Shown: in pieces, positions 1,824-13,076 of the stretch
Layout: each line of letters opens with the position of its first letter
Position numbering within the stretch: position 1 is the first letter of the stretch
Virus record (IMG/VR): IMGVR_UViG_3300044703_000017
Span: 1 to 22,213 of that record
Direction: 5' to 3' (one strand)
Source: a virus
DNA length: 22,213 nucleotides
Position numbers and translations under genes: made by a program
The notes under the pieces: generated by a model
What the model was told of the DNA's origin: nothing
Seen by the model: the letters and a program-made list of their open reading frames with translations, nothing else
The model's database searches: none

Positions 1824-3295
1824 TTACTTGTCACCACTTGAGTCCCGTCGGGCCAATCGTTCGTCCTGATCTGCGAAGTGGCCGTATATCTGTCTGCCCT
1901 GTCCGCGGGGGGGGTATTTCCACCACCACCGAACAACGGCCCGTGATCGACGGGCTTATCCTTATTCCGCTCAGCCGCGGCCGCGCGCTTGCGCGTGTCT
2001 GTGCCAGACATCGCGAGTGACATCCGCCGCCGAATATCGTTCTGATATTCTTCCTCGCGCTCAATCAGGACGGCGCGCATGCCTTCGCGTATGCAGGCTT
2101 CGCCCGTCGTGCCGGTTCCGGCGAACGGATCGAGCACCAGACCCTTCGGCGGCGTTACTAGCCGCACGAGGTATTGCATCAGATCGAGTGGCTTGACGGT
2201 TGGATGCTTGGAGCCGAGTCTGTCGTCTGCATCGGCCTTGGCGGTATAGAAGAAGCGCGCTGCAGATCCTTCATCGCCGCGTGGCTCGTTCGGTGGGCGG
2301 GCTCCGAAGTCACCATAGATGCCGCGCGACGGGCGCAATCCGTGCTCGGGGCCGACAAAGCGTTGCTGCCCCGGCGCATCGGGGAACGCCTCGATCACCT
2401 CCGCGCTTCCGTCATGGATGACGTTGGCAGGCCAGCGGCCTTGCTTATTGGGCGACCACATTTCATCGTGACCGATGCCCTCGCCCCAGACCTTGTTCGC
2501 GGTCGACTTGCCGGAGCGGCCTTCCATTTCGGACACATCAGCTACAACCCTGCACCCATCTATGTTCAGCGCTCCCGTTCCCCATTTCAGGACGTTGGCA
2601 GCTACAGTGGATTCAGAGAGAGGTTTACGGGCTAATATTATCGGTTCGCAGGCAGGTTTTAGGGCTGTGCCGAAGCCATCCCAAGCGGCAGCAGCAGCAG
2701 TTGCAGGAATTGGACCATCTTTGTCGTGGTAGCCGCGCTCGATTGCCGCCAGACGCCAAGGGCGATCATCGCCCTTGACCGCACCACCAACGAGATTCGG
2801 AGGATTGTTTAACAGGGAGGCGTCCACGCGGACCTTCTCGCGCTCAACTCCCGCCGCCTTATCAATCGCCTTGCTGACATCCAGCGATTTCGGAAATCCC
2901 GAGCCGTAGAGCCATTGAACCGAGTTGCGGATTTCAAATCCCGCCAAGCGTATCGCTAGCACCCCGAGATCGTAGGTTCGCGTTCCGAAGAAGCACAGCA
3001 CATGCGCGCCGGGTTTAAGGACGCGATAGACCTCTTTCCAGATTGCAGGTTGCGGAACGAACGCATCCCATTCCTTGCCCATGAATCCGGACTTGGACGG
3101 TACATCGTAATGACCGCCTTCCAGCCATGCGCGGAGCATCACCAGAGGATCAGGCTCGCGTCCGAGCCCATACGGAGGATCGGTTGCGCAGCCATCGACG
3201 CTGTTCGATTCCAGCGTCCGGAGCGCGGCGAGATTGTCGGCCGGGTAAAAGTCGACGACGCCTTCGGCTAGATGTTCAACACCAGGTGCGTTCAT
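1820..3295 (-). CDS. beta-class site-specific DNA methyltransferase (N6-adenine or N4-cytosine)
   Basis: This 491-residue protein transfers a methyl group from S-adenosylmethionine to an amino group of DNA bases. The catalytic motif DPPYGL is at residues 39-44. The S-adenosylmethionine-binding motif DPFAGTGTTG is near the C-terminus (about 389-398), preceded by TVKPLDLMQYLV. This catalytic-then-cofactor order is the beta-class arrangement (N6_N4_Mtase family), the class that includes CcrM. A long central segment (about 150-330) is probably the target-recognition region. No restriction enzyme is adjacent, so it looks like a solitary phage methylase that could hide phage DNA from restriction or change gene expression. 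The start ATG overlaps the upstream stop as ATGA. Target sequence and base cannot be read from the sequence. Confidence 0.9.
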   Translation of the reverse strand: MNAPGVEHLAEGVVDFYPADNLAALRTLESNSVDGCATDPPYGLGREPDPLVMLRAWLEGGHYDVPSKSGFMGKEWDAFVPQPAIWKEVYRVLKPGAHVLCFFGTRTYDLGVLAIRLAGFEIRNSVQWLYGSGFPKSLDVSKAIDKAAGVEREKVRVDASLLNNPPNLVGGAVKGDDRPWRLAAIERGYHDKDGPIPATAAAAAWDGFGTALKPACEPIILARKPLSESTVAANVLKWGTGALNIDGCRVVADVSEMEGRSGKSTANKVWGEGIGHDEMWSPNKQGRWPANVIHDGSAEVIEAFPDAPGQQRFVGPEHGLRPSRGIYGDFGARPPNEPRGDEGSAARFFYTAKADADDRLGSKHPTVKPLDLMQYLVRLVTPPKGLVLDPFAGTGTTGEACIREGMRAVLIEREEEYQNDIRRRMSLAMSGTDTRKRAAAAERNKDKPVDHGPLFGGGGNTPPADRADRYTATSQIRTNDWPDGTQVVTSK

Positions 3296-3555
3296 GAGAA
3301 CGGCACCTCAGCAGGAGCCGCAGCGCTCACATCCTCAACGAGGCCTCGCGGATTACACGGAGGACGATGATCCAGTTTGATCCGCGCCGATGCTCCCGGC
3401 ATCGTGAATTCGTGCCAGGGAAATCCTGTCGGCGGATGTACGGTAATCATCACCAATGAACATGCGAGGCACGTGCGGATGGTTTCTCCGCAGCCGCTTG
3501 TGTTGTCGGCAGCAGCGATGTGTTTTTCGTTGTCGTGGTCCCAGCGGTGATTCAT
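3292..3555 (-). CDS. hypothetical protein with Cys-rich N-terminus
   Basis: An 87-residue protein of no recognised family. It begins MNHRWDHDNEKHIAAADN and has three cysteines and several histidines in the first half (CGETIRTCLAC), which suggests a small metal-binding fold. A hydrophobic stretch and a Pro-rich segment (HPPTGFPWHEF) follow. It is coupled on both sides by ATGA: its start overlaps the stop of the preceding gene and its own stop overlaps the methyltransferase start. It is therefore probably translated together with them. Metal binding is an inference from residue spacing only. Confidence 0.65.
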   Translation of the reverse strand: MNHRWDHDNEKHIAAADNTSGCGETIRTCLACSLVMITVHPPTGFPWHEFTMPGASARIKLDHRPPCNPRGLVEDVSAAAPAEVPFS

Positions 3556-10552: not shown

Positions 10553-10912
10553 TCACACGCGCGTCAGGCGAAACTTCGTGGAGTCGAGACGCGCGAGCAC
10601 CGCAACCGAAGCCGCTTCATCGTTGGCGGCGATCAAGCTCGCTTCCGTGAAGTAGCCGCGCTGGCGCGTGCCGTCGTCGCCGATCCAGGTCACGAAGATG
10701 ATGCGGCCTTCGATCTCTTCGGGTGACGGAGCGGCCAGCAACCGATTGCGCATTCCCTTGGCGAGCTTCGCACGCTTGGCCAACGTCGTGATCGGGCCAC
10801 ATTCGCCATCGGCCTTGCTCGCCGGGAATGAGACGAGGCCCTGCACGGCGTGCAGGCCGGGGACGTTCACGCGGAACTGCGGCAGAAATGGAAAATGGGC
10901 TTTCTTGCGCAT
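10553..10912 (-). CDS. hypothetical phage protein
   Basis: A protein of about 119 residues (ATG 10912; ATG 10924 is 4 codons upstream) with no recognised family. It begins MRKKAHFPFLPQFRVNVPGL and later has RIIFVTWIGDDGTRQRGYF, a strand-turn-strand pattern, and a C-terminus with regular hydrophobic spacing (SVAVLARLDSTKFRLTRV). It is the first protein gene downstream of the large RNA candidate. Its stop is in GTGA with the next start, so the leftward coupled chain resumes here. No strong ribosome-binding site is seen; a 6-bp inverted repeat lies just upstream. Confidence 0.6.
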   Translation of the reverse strand: MRKKAHFPFLPQFRVNVPGLHAVQGLVSFPASKADGECGPITTLAKRAKLAKGMRNRLLAAPSPEEIEGRIIFVTWIGDDGTRQRGYFTEASLIAANDEAASVAVLARLDSTKFRLTRV

Positions 10913-10929
10913 GAGACAAACCATCCACG

Positions 10930-10948: not shown

Positions 10949-11468
10949 GCGAAAGAACGTTGATCGTGATACGCTTGTGAAAGTCAGACGCTACAGAACT
11001 GGCAGGCACGGAAACGCAATTACGCTATTGAATTAAGCTCCCCACGAGCGGCCGAGACGACGAGCCGAGTTCGGAGATAGCGTTCCTGATGGATGCGCCG
11101 ACTGGCGCAGATCATCCCAGTTCGCCGTGGGGAATCTCTGAATTGAATCTCGCGGGCCGATCGCTACTCGGCAGGCGTCATGAGCGCCCCGGTTCGTTAC
11201 CCGCGCGGCGGCCGTGACCGCCTGGTGAGCGTTTACGCCGCGAGAATTGAATCGGGTGAGAACGGCTTTCGCCACTGCACGGTCCGATGCCCACGCCGTC
11301 GCGTCGCGCATCCCGAATCCATGCTCACCCGAACTGAATTCGTGGGGCGTCCGGGAGGACCGAGACGCCCCGGCTGCACTCCGCCGTGCAGCGAGCCTAC
11401 TAGCGGCCTGAGTTATACCTTCCGCAGTCCTTTGGACCACGATTGCAGGACACGCGTTCGCTGGGGAT

Positions 11469-11483
11469 CTGAATTGAGTGCGG
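11469..11483 (-). repeat. 15-bp direct repeat, copy 1 (RNA domain linker)
   Basis: CTGAATTGAGTGCGG on the plus strand is identical to 11677-11691. It is the linker plus one arm of the adjoining hairpin 11476-11500 (GAGUG/CACUC closing pair). The two copies are 208 bp apart, which is not a multiple of three, so they cannot be protein repeats. Confidence 0.8.
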
Positions 11484-11676
11484 AGCTTTCCACTCCACTC
11501 GATGCATAGTGCGCTGCCTTGTACTTCGGCCCGCTTACGCCCATGCACTCGCGTCATCTGCGCTGTAGGTGTGACGCCACCAGATTCACGGCGCAGTCGC
11601 GGGGCAAGCAATTCCCGTTGATGTCGTCTTGCCCGATACCTGTACCCCGCATTGCTGCCGGTCCCGGCGGTATTAA

Positions 11677-11691
11677 CTGAATTGAGTGCGG
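11677..11691 (-). repeat. 15-bp direct repeat, copy 2 (RNA domain linker)
   Basis: Identical to 11469-11483. Here the arm folds into the short hairpin 11684-11696 (GAGTG, 3-base loop, CACTC). The same linker joined to a GAGUG/CACUC stem in both places suggests duplicated RNA modules. Confidence 0.8.
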
Positions 11692-12006
11692 CACTCTCTC
11701 CGCCCGTCACGCCTGTTAACCGCTTCGTCTGCGACGGAAGAGGGCGTCTTCCCGAAGGGCTCGTTCCCGTTGGTGCGGTCGGCTGGACCCTTAGACTGTC
11801 ACTCCGCCTCGGATGTGCCGGAGCACAAAATGTCGCCGGGCAACGCCTGCGCTGTACATCGCATGCGCCCTTATCCGCGTCCGGGTCCGCGTTCGTCAGC
11901 GATACCACCGAACGGACGCCGCTGACGTTCAGCGTTCCGTTCAGCCCGTGACCGGCGATCGACCGATCACAGCTTACGCTCTCTCGCTTGGGGTAACGAA
12001 TATCCA

Positions 12007-12762
12007 TCAGGCGGCAATCTCCAGACACTCGCCGATGATCTCGCGCTCAAGGGCGCCGCACTTGTCGTCCTGCCATTCCACGTCGCCCTTCATCGCAACA
12101 ATCCACCAACGTTCGCCCTTCCATTTCGGAGGGAGCGTCGTGGCGTGGAGCGTGCCGCGCTCGCAGACTTTGAGCGGACCCGGAGATTTGTGGACTACGC
12201 CAGGCGCCGCTGGCTCGACGCGACCGCCATTGTTTGACGGCTGACCATTACGGTCAGAGCGCCAGAACGCGATGATGTTTCCATCTTTGCGAAGCGCCGT
12301 TAGGCGCTCGCGCAAAACTTCTGGCCATGACGACGCGAATGCATCGATCGTGGCCAGCCAATATTCTTTGGAGCCGTCGCCGTAGCCGTAGCCGTCGCCG
12401 GAGCCGTAGCCGTCGCCGTCGCCGTAGCCGTCGCCGGAGCCGGAGCCGTAGCCGTCGCCGGAGCCGTAGCCGGAGCCGGAGCCGGAGCCGTCGCCGTCGC
12501 CGTAGCCGTCGCCGTAGCCGGAGCCGGAGCCGGAGCCGTCGCCGTCGCCGTAGCCGTAGCCGTCGCCGTAGCCGGAGCCGTCGCCGTAGCCGGAGCCGTC
12601 GCCGGAGCCGTAGCCGTCGCCGGAGCCGTCGCCGTAGCCGGAGCCGTAGCCGTCGCCGTAGCCGGAGCCGGAGCCGGAGCCGTAGTACGTGCCGCCATAG
12701 TCAAATGGCTTCGGGGCTTCGCCCCGAAGAAGATTTGTTGGCGACGCCATGGATGAGTTCAC
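12007..12762 (-). CDS. Gly/Ser/Tyr/Asp repeat protein with DUF7666-like C-terminal domain
   Basis: The start is GTG 12762, in GTGA overlap with the upstream gene; ATG 12750 is 4 codons later. The longer frame to 12921 is a shadow of that gene. The 251-residue product has a short N-terminus (MASPTNLLRGEAPKPFDYGG), then about 105 residues of alternating Gly and Ser/Tyr/Asp, then an ordered domain starting YWLATIDAFASSWPEVLRER. The C-terminus (IIAFWRSDRNGQ, GPLKVCERGTLHAT, DDKCGALEREIIGE) resembles phage domains of the DUF7666 type, which often follow repetitive regions. No signal peptide is seen. The repeat may be a flexible linker, an assembly surface or a condensate-forming tract. The gene ends directly before the RNA candidate. 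Function unknown. Confidence 0.7.
   Translation of the reverse strand: MNSSMASPTNLLRGEAPKPFDYGGTYYGSGSGSGYGDGYGSGYGDGSGDGYGSGDGSGYGDGSGYGDGYGYGDGDGSGSGSGYGDGYGDGDGSGSGSGYGSGDGYGSGSGDGYGDGDGYGSGDGYGYGDGSKEYWLATIDAFASSWPEVLRERLTALRKDGNIIAFWRSDRNGQPSNNGGRVEPAAPGVVHKSPGPLKVCERGTLHATTLPPKWKGERWWIVAMKGDVEWQDDKCGALEREIIGECLEIAA
12371..12686 (-). repeat. hexanucleotide-based tandem repeat encoding Gly-(Ser/Tyr/Asp)
   Basis: About 316 bp made almost entirely of codon pairs GGC+TCC, GGC+TAC or GGC+GAC read on the minus strand. Only the first two bases of every second codon vary. Such DNA is prone to replication slippage and should vary in length between related phages. Its other frames produce spurious Ala-Thr and Ser-Arg-Arg repeats. 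Confidence 0.95.
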
Positions 12763-13076
12763 CGCCACGGCGCGGACTCCCATGCCTGCGTTGCCGCAGG
12801 CGCACATTCGGCGACGCACGTGATGTCGCGAAGCTCGATGTCGGCCGCTGGCCCGACCTTGCAAGACTTCGTTGGTCCCGTTGCCGCAAGGCCCAGGAAG
12901 CCGCGCACTTCGCTCGACCAATAGACGCAGTTACGTGCGGCCCGTAGCTTGATTGATGTGCCGTCAGTCTCAGTGGCGTAGCCGAAGAACACGCCGCGAT
13001 GCGTCGTGGTAACAAGGACGGCGCGTTCATTCGTGTCCGCGTTCTTGTTCTTGTTGCGGTTGGGGTGATTGATCAT
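12759..13076 (-). CDS. DUF6948-like phage protein
   Basis: This 105-residue protein is recognisable by ERAVLVTTTHRGVFFGYATE, then LRAARNCVYWSSEVRGFLGL, AATGPTKSCKVGPAA and a C-terminus ending AAATQAWESAPW (approximately), all typical of a small family in alphaproteobacterial phages. It looks like a compact beta-rich domain of unknown function. The start ATG 13076 has a strong ribosome-binding site (GGAGGA, about 6 nt away). The coding start overlaps the end of the upstream gene by 50 bp, while its stop is in GTGA with the next gene. The Asn/Lys-rich N-terminal tail (NRNKNKNADTNE) is unusual. Confidence 0.8.
   Translation of the reverse strand: MINHPNRNKNKNADTNERAVLVTTTHRGVFFGYATETDGTSIKLRAARNCVYWSSEVRGFLGLAATGPTKSCKVGPAADIELRDITCVAECAPAATQAWESAPWR

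Follow-up and report, generated by a model that had tools for sequence, protein, structure and literature searches.

To our knowledge, few large phage RNAs have been described, and what they do remains open. Two of them, GOLLD and ROOL, often lie near tRNA islands and combine a conserved 3′ part with variable regions, and GOLLD was reported to bind ribosomes (PMC12286853). Here we analysed a gene-free kilobase of a soil phage, contained in an IMG/VR virus record of 22,213 bp (the window, meaning the whole stretch of DNA analysed). Between two leftward early genes, at 11036-11998 on the minus strand, lies what we read as an array of structured RNA domains, based on the missing coding signal, the stems and linkers of the domains, and two modules, M and B, with homologs elsewhere. 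Like GOLLD and ROOL, the modules occur in phages or prophages and often beside tRNA islands, although a search of the window itself found no tRNA gene. Unlike GOLLD and ROOL, they are separate, shuffled units with AAUUC linkers and also occur alone.

Rfam returned nothing in the window at curated thresholds and no match between 10900 and 12100 at E-values up to 10; in the best homologs it identified only tRNAs, a tmRNA and sub-threshold chance matches. The sequence-only reading had proposed a GOLLD- or ROOL-like RNA or else a new class. GOLLD, ROOL, HEARO and OLE are excluded as families because none of their covariance models matched in the window (E=10) or its homologs, whereas the new-class alternative is supported by the covariation of M and B described below. 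A tmRNA was rejected since no model matched in the window; the tmRNA of Caulobacter phage CcrColossus is a separate, permuted RNA in the same island. Group I and II introns and known ribozymes likewise had no Rfam match. Neither fold is present in Rfam 15, and we found no description of either in open-access papers, closed-access work and most preprints being outside the search. We consider M and B new RNA classes. Their broader category, large structured RNAs of phages near tRNA genes, has precedents; for the folds and their modular build, Rfam and open-access papers revealed none.

The upstream neighbor of the element is a leftward gene (12007-12921, minus strand) whose stop abuts module M. 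Its product contains a long repeat of Gly, Ser, Tyr and Asp and a C-terminal domain that many related phages conserve; relatives sharing this domain occur in 55 related loci. The repeat includes a long Tyr/Gly/Ser/Asp run at 12360-12700 with GCCGGAGCCGTAGCC-type units. Downstream is a leftward orphan gene of 123 aa (10553-10924, minus strand; coding score +0.38), for which a search for relatives and the Pfam and PHROG databases yielded nothing. Codon-usage scoring trained on the confident genes of the window detected no coding signal in any of the six frames between about 10950 and 12000. The 331-codon minus-strand frame scored -0.16 bits per codon, compared to +0.38 and +0.31 for the two neighboring genes, and its protein had no match in Pfam or PHROG. 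Given these uniformly negative results, we call the gap gene-free and rule out a protein-coding gene. This agrees with the earlier description of nearly 1 kb without a credible gene at 11020-11985; codon-level conservation of the 331-codon frame, which would have refuted the RNA reading, was not found. The coordinates and content of that interval hold, except that the element starts slightly upstream, at about 11998, after the stop of the 12007 gene. No promoter was seen when we looked for one in the window. One relative has ordinary genes at the syntenic position, which makes the element accessory and dispensable in related phages.

Six AAUUC linkers on the minus strand split the region into five inter-linker segments. 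The first linker follows module M (11679-11683, in CACUCAAUUCAG) and precedes domain D2 (11484-11678), which spans about 195 nt, is structurally unresolved, has no unusual folding energy (z 0.05) and ends near a GAGUG..CACUC hairpin. After the linker at 11471-11475 comes domain D4 (11341-11470; z -1.99 on the minus strand), with local hairpins including GGGGCGUC/GACGCCCC and GCUGCAC/GUGCAGC. The linker at 11336-11340 leads to the 81-nt domain A, or D5 (11252-11332), with closing stem UCGGGUGAG/CUCACCCGA. Another (11244-11248) lies between A and module B, and a further one follows B (11140-11144, in AUUCAAUUCAG). Domain D7 (11036-11137) is closed by UUCCCCACGG/UCGUGGGGAG, a stem that includes G-U pairs when read in the minus sense; the last linker comes after it (11030-11034, in CUUAAUUCAAUAG). 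All of these features are on the minus strand. We detected no homologs of D2, D4, A or D7.

Three of the five segments are closed by stems of 9, 7 and 10 bp directly at the AATTC linkers, an arrangement reached in about 0.3% of trials with shuffled inter-linker DNA (p ~0.003). The stems of the sequence-only reading are present, as is its GAAA loop on the minus strand (GGCGAAAGCC). The 10-bp closing stem includes G-U pairs in the minus sense. Domains A and D7 stand out individually by folding energy on the minus strand (z=-3.5 and z=-3.7; D7 reaches -1.85 on the plus strand). The region as a whole does not leave the range of coding controls (z = -1.5 minus, -0.9 plus; one coding control -3.2), so the stems alone are weak evidence.

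Direct blastn of the whole region against phages and plasmids returned only short matches. The key match, 28-29 nt at 11710-11682, was shared with E. coli phage D6 and about 100 enterobacterial phage-plasmids, and in D6 it sits in a 1.2-kb unannotated gap immediately ahead of tRNA genes. Among 392 genomes of the Rhodopseudomonas family, locus L261 (loci carry L numbers) matched this stretch with 95% identity across 37 nt. A 24-nt motif, searched with the pattern GACGGGNGGAGAGAGTGCC, was present in 55 IMG/VR contigs, where chance would yield about two by our own rough estimate of the collection size. It was also found in 4 of the 392 Rhodopseudomonas-family genomes, compared to none for a backward control pattern, and in its D6 form in 89 of 5,426 complete E. 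coli genomes, always plasmid-borne. Other routes were unproductive: none of 108 loci related through DUF7220 and a 105-aa protein had significant blast similarity to the RNA, linker-only and hairpin-linker patterns gave only chance matches (for the most part in AT-rich DNA and in a gene for a repeat protein), and a first scan of genome contigs gave no match.

Module M (11687-11998, minus strand) is the first domain and begins directly behind the stop codon of the 12007-12921 gene. Its extent is inferred from the upstream identity of the window copy to L302 (59.8% from -285 to +21 of the motif, 306 nt, E=5.8e-9). A model of the M core, R2, scores the window copy at 43.2 bits, the window being one of its 26 training sequences. 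The 3′ core (11687-11749, minus strand) comprises P1, ACGCC (11747-11743)/GGCGU (11713-11709), then GACGGG and a hairpin, GCGG (11703-11700)/CCGC (11691-11688), with loop AGAGAGUG; R2 prefers an alternative, shorter P1 starting at 11730. The module ends in GUGACGGGYGGAGAGAGUGCCRCA. All M copies have GACGGGYGGAGAGAGUGCCRC in common, usually preceded by GU, and the window, which carries this motif with P1 directly before it, meets the definition of the class, to which a covarying Y-R pair also belongs.

Both helices of the M core covary. The search pattern left the R of the Y-R hairpin pair free; among the non-redundant loci, 31 have C-G and 7 have U-A at this pair, and none has it broken. The 3′ arm of P1 ends exactly at -1, and at least five pairs form in 76% of loci, compared to 39% when the upstream bases are shuffled; offsets adjacent to the exact position are near background. 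P1 pairs change jointly (ACGUC/GACGU, AAGCC/GGCUU, ACCGC/GCGGU, ACGAC/GUCGU and others). MAFFT alignments misplaced the 5′ arm of P1, and we masked the loops with N and selected the arms according to their pairing. The resulting 33 double-change cells are therefore biased upward, and the shuffle test is the fairer measure. Past the motif, near-identical M copies diverge abruptly (L271 versus L292; also L285, L297 and L303). Of 42 loci, 9 have AATTC immediately beyond M, whereas the background has a mean of 0.5 and a maximum of 2.

As a measure of its specificity, R2 had no match in 1.16 Mb of related phages; it did match CcrColossus. There, four M-like cores lie in a row (2975-3027, 3190-3250, 3450-3504 and 4520-4570 of L358), each with GCGAACGCC..GGCGUGAC and a hairpin, and with differing apical hairpins such as GGCC-AGA-GGCC. 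R2 detects only the first, so the search motif covers just part of the M family. One stretch of M, GUGACGGGCGG (11698-11710, minus strand), is what we take to be the reverse complement of the conserved decoding region of 16S rRNA. Its P1-proximal bases vary freely and only 9 nt are constant across copies, a length easily reached by chance, so we rejected an antisense role and regard the complementarity as a likely coincidence.

Module B is represented in the window by a divergent copy (domain D6, 11145-11248, minus strand), which blast matched to L261, L294 and other M loci. Its outer stem pairs UCUCGCGG (11245-11238) with CCGCGAGA (11155-11148). The arm GCCGA-GUAGCG-AUCGGC abuts this stem, while the first arm is reduced to GCG-UAAA-CGC. 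The consensus of B is N5-CGGCGGCGYG-GAAAGCRGA-CRCGC, a variable interior of 7-151 nt, then AGCNGGGAUAGCGUCCN'GCCCG-N5'. Scanning with the B pattern retrieved 20 contigs, all of them real copies on inspection except L325, and the family now has at least 34 copies. In an alignment of 17 sequences, 97.5% of cells are paired, compared to 30-48% when the arms are slid, and 53 cells are double changes. Across 34 copies we counted 113 compensatory double-change cells versus 28.6 in shuffles. No shuffle reached the observed values, and the covariation is overwhelming. In one alignment, A2, an insert was removed by hand from the first hairpin of L334; A4 and A7 are unedited sequence. A lack of covarying pairs among relatives would have overturned the sequence-only reading; the pairs of both M and B do covary. 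Because both folds recur with compensatory changes in scores of other phages and are absent from Rfam, we conclude that the proposed large structured RNA exists and represents uncatalogued classes.

A covariance model of B built without the window sequence, R1, recovers the window copy with 23.6 bits on the minus strand and 8.7 bits on the plus strand (E-value 3e-5 for 1.2 kb, 0.014 for 576 kb). R1 also finds B in 13 of the 392 Rhodopseudomonas-family genomes, in 3 of 99 unselected related phage loci (1.16 Mb, all below 1e-4), and in Pseudomonas phages Persinger and PotUPM1. In Persinger, B stands alone between the integrase gene and a strong terminator. The carriers of the two folds are phages of alpha- and gammaproteobacteria. 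The cultured ones are E. coli phage D6, Persinger, PotUPM1 and CcrColossus, in all of which the sequence is unannotated. One phage has two B copies 1.3 kb apart (L326, 9139-9318 and 10572-10744). Variants of about 173 nt with a conserved interior, GCGGCCACUACCUCACGGUGCGUAGGUAGCGA..., occur in bacterial genomes (near position 1500 of L349, L351 and L345); about 100 nt upstream of the variant in L349 and L351, on the same strand, is the end of an orphan protein of about 345 aa.

The geometry of B is tRNA-like. Like tRNA, tmRNA and YrlA-type RNAs, it has an outer stem, a 2-nt spacer (in 34 of 34 copies) and a 5-bp arm with a loop of about 9 nt, and as in the tRNA plan a variable middle is followed by a 5-bp arm that abuts the outer stem with no gap; it is also found in tRNA islands. 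Unlike tRNA, it lacks an anticodon arm, that region being replaced by variable sequence, and the copies inspected showed no CCA end. Its loops, GAAAGCRGA and GAUAGCGU, are not D- or T-loop sequences. Neither ARAGORN nor the Rfam tRNA and tmRNA models called B in the window or the B loci, and the tRNA-like reading rests on geometry. Two copies (L352 and L353) carry UUUCGAGU in the second arm, close to a true tRNA T-loop; that of L353 adjoins a Fic-domain gene. In L340, a T-arm-like sequence lies within B.

The orientation of the RNA could be determined. In the B alignment, with the loop-closing position excluded, there are 14 G-U pairs and no A-C mismatches, and in other phages M is on the same strand as neighboring tRNA genes and terminators. 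Taken together with the strand preference of R1, this places the RNA on the minus strand of the window, as the sequence-only reading had proposed. We are close to certain that the locus encodes a conserved structured RNA in the minus sense.

M and B co-occur in six loci and are apart in most. Three loci, the window, L261 and L294, are arranged as M, a closed domain and B, with linkers of the AAUUC type. The domain that occupies the position of A is of unrelated sequence among these loci, yet keeps closing stems of 9-13 bp (10 bp in L261, 13 bp in L294). In L294 and L300, the closed domain after M, in the position of A, has a common stretch, GGCAUCCAWCAGCCCRGGUCAAUGACA, perhaps a third module family. 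The order is not fixed: B lies upstream of M in L306, and a tRNA gene separates M from B in L303. Same-strand tRNA genes occur within about 1.2 kb of M in eleven loci, phage D6 included, and also near M in CcrColossus, where tRNAs and a permuted tmRNA lie among several M-like cores. Terminators follow the modules in phage D6, L279, L285 and Persinger.

Several further RNA-like sequences adjoin the modules. The permuted tmRNA of CcrColossus (L358, 3622-4005; RF04321, E=6e-15) is unannotated, has a readable tag frame and lies between M-like cores. In phage D6, at about 2640-2800 beside the M-bearing RNA, a stretch with a tmRNA-like tag frame, GCAAACGATGATCTGATGATGGTAGCGGCCTAA (ANDDLMMVAA), has a weak permuted-tmRNA score of 24 bits, below threshold. 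This stretch is common to P1 and P7 at about 90% identity, and more than 100 enterobacterial phages carry parts of it at about 70% identity; the P1 annotation says only 'dicF-like region'. Just after M in L301 and L314 is a tRNA-like sequence with D and T arms, apparently without a proper anticodon arm, which ARAGORN did not call.

Any explanation has to accommodate what we observed: the absence of genes, two covarying folds, their strand sense, modules shared in changing order, and frequent proximity to tRNA genes. The whole-region folding energy, within the range of coding controls, would allow for stems that arose by accident in a GC-rich stretch poor in genes, or for a decayed gene, but we give chance next to no credence, because M and B covary across many phages, the B model matches the window and the M-A-B order is syntenic. 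The element could also be one giant RNA forming a single assembly, a cage or other oligomer as in GOLLD and ROOL. M and B would then be domains at its periphery or interfaces, and the variable interiors and linkers would serve for cargo. Its length of about 0.96 kb, phage location, tRNA-island neighborhood and variable interiors resemble GOLLD and ROOL (PMC12286853), and the M-A-B order is conserved in three loci. Against this, M and B are separate in most loci, their order changes in L306, B stands alone with a terminator in Persinger, and neither GOLLD nor ROOL matches; we consider a single assembly unlikely. By the same token, a single functional array is unproved, since M and B often occur apart. 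A modular array remains a reading we hold with good confidence.

M or B might instead be self-cleaving or processing elements, either small ribozymes or RNase signals that separate polycistronic tRNAs and other RNAs. The sharp 3′ boundary of M with variable sequence beyond it even in near-identical copies, the repeated M-like cores between CcrColossus tRNA genes, and the AU-rich linkers at junctions would all fit. No known ribozyme family matches, however, and the copies of phage D6 and Persinger adjoin terminators rather than lying between genes, which leaves this fairly improbable. Action at the DNA level or in cis, as recombination or attachment hairpins or as leader or terminator elements for neighboring genes, is very unlikely in our judgment. 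In Persinger, B does come after the integrase gene; shuffling of modules between phages also occurs, and the stems are palindromic in DNA too. However, the 14 G-U pairs against no A-C mismatch in the B alignment, the strand preference of R1, the fixed orientation with tRNA genes and the lack of a constant neighboring gene all speak against it, and loops conserved on one strand fit RNA, not DNA hairpins.

The explanation we prefer, with a probability of roughly 0.6, is a minus-strand noncoding RNA array, for which processing and an action on translation are inferences. The array is probably transcribed on the minus strand together with the leftward early genes, although this is inferred without expression data. 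Its separately closing domains, two of them M and B, would be joined by short unpaired AAUUC-type linkers. Host RNases may cut the transcript at the linkers or at tRNA-like ends, leaving stable RNAs that, once infection is under way, could target the translation machinery in trans. These may mimic tRNAs or serve as decoys for tRNA-cutting defence nucleases, tRNA-processing enzymes or ribosomes; alternatively, they may scaffold phage tRNAs. We suspect the translation system because the modules lie beside phage tRNAs, B is laid out like a tRNA and GOLLD was reported to bind ribosomes (PMC12286853). In the absence of expression or functional data, a role in translation or tRNA mimicry is tentative and held with low confidence, though a processed array of tRNA-mimic or scaffold RNAs remains our first choice among the readings.

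Phage tRNAs are reported to evade tRNA-targeting defences (PMC10264068). A likeness to phage decoy RNAs and tRNAs that counter host tRNA nucleases would explain the tRNA-like shape of B, its location in tRNA islands and its patchy distribution; it is only an analogy, with no functional evidence. It is conceivable, if doubtful, that phages carry exchangeable arrays of structured RNA domains, with at least two new classes, one of them a tRNA mimic, that form a translation-directed RNA weapon or shield. With similar reserve, such arrays may be compared to mosaic protein genes, their AAUUC-linked modules being shuffled among phages and tRNA islands and the interior of the tRNA mimic being interchangeable. 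Arrays of M and B bear on the question of why phages carry tRNA islands, and their cultured carriers are laboratory systems for testing whether phages use modular, tRNA-shaped RNAs.
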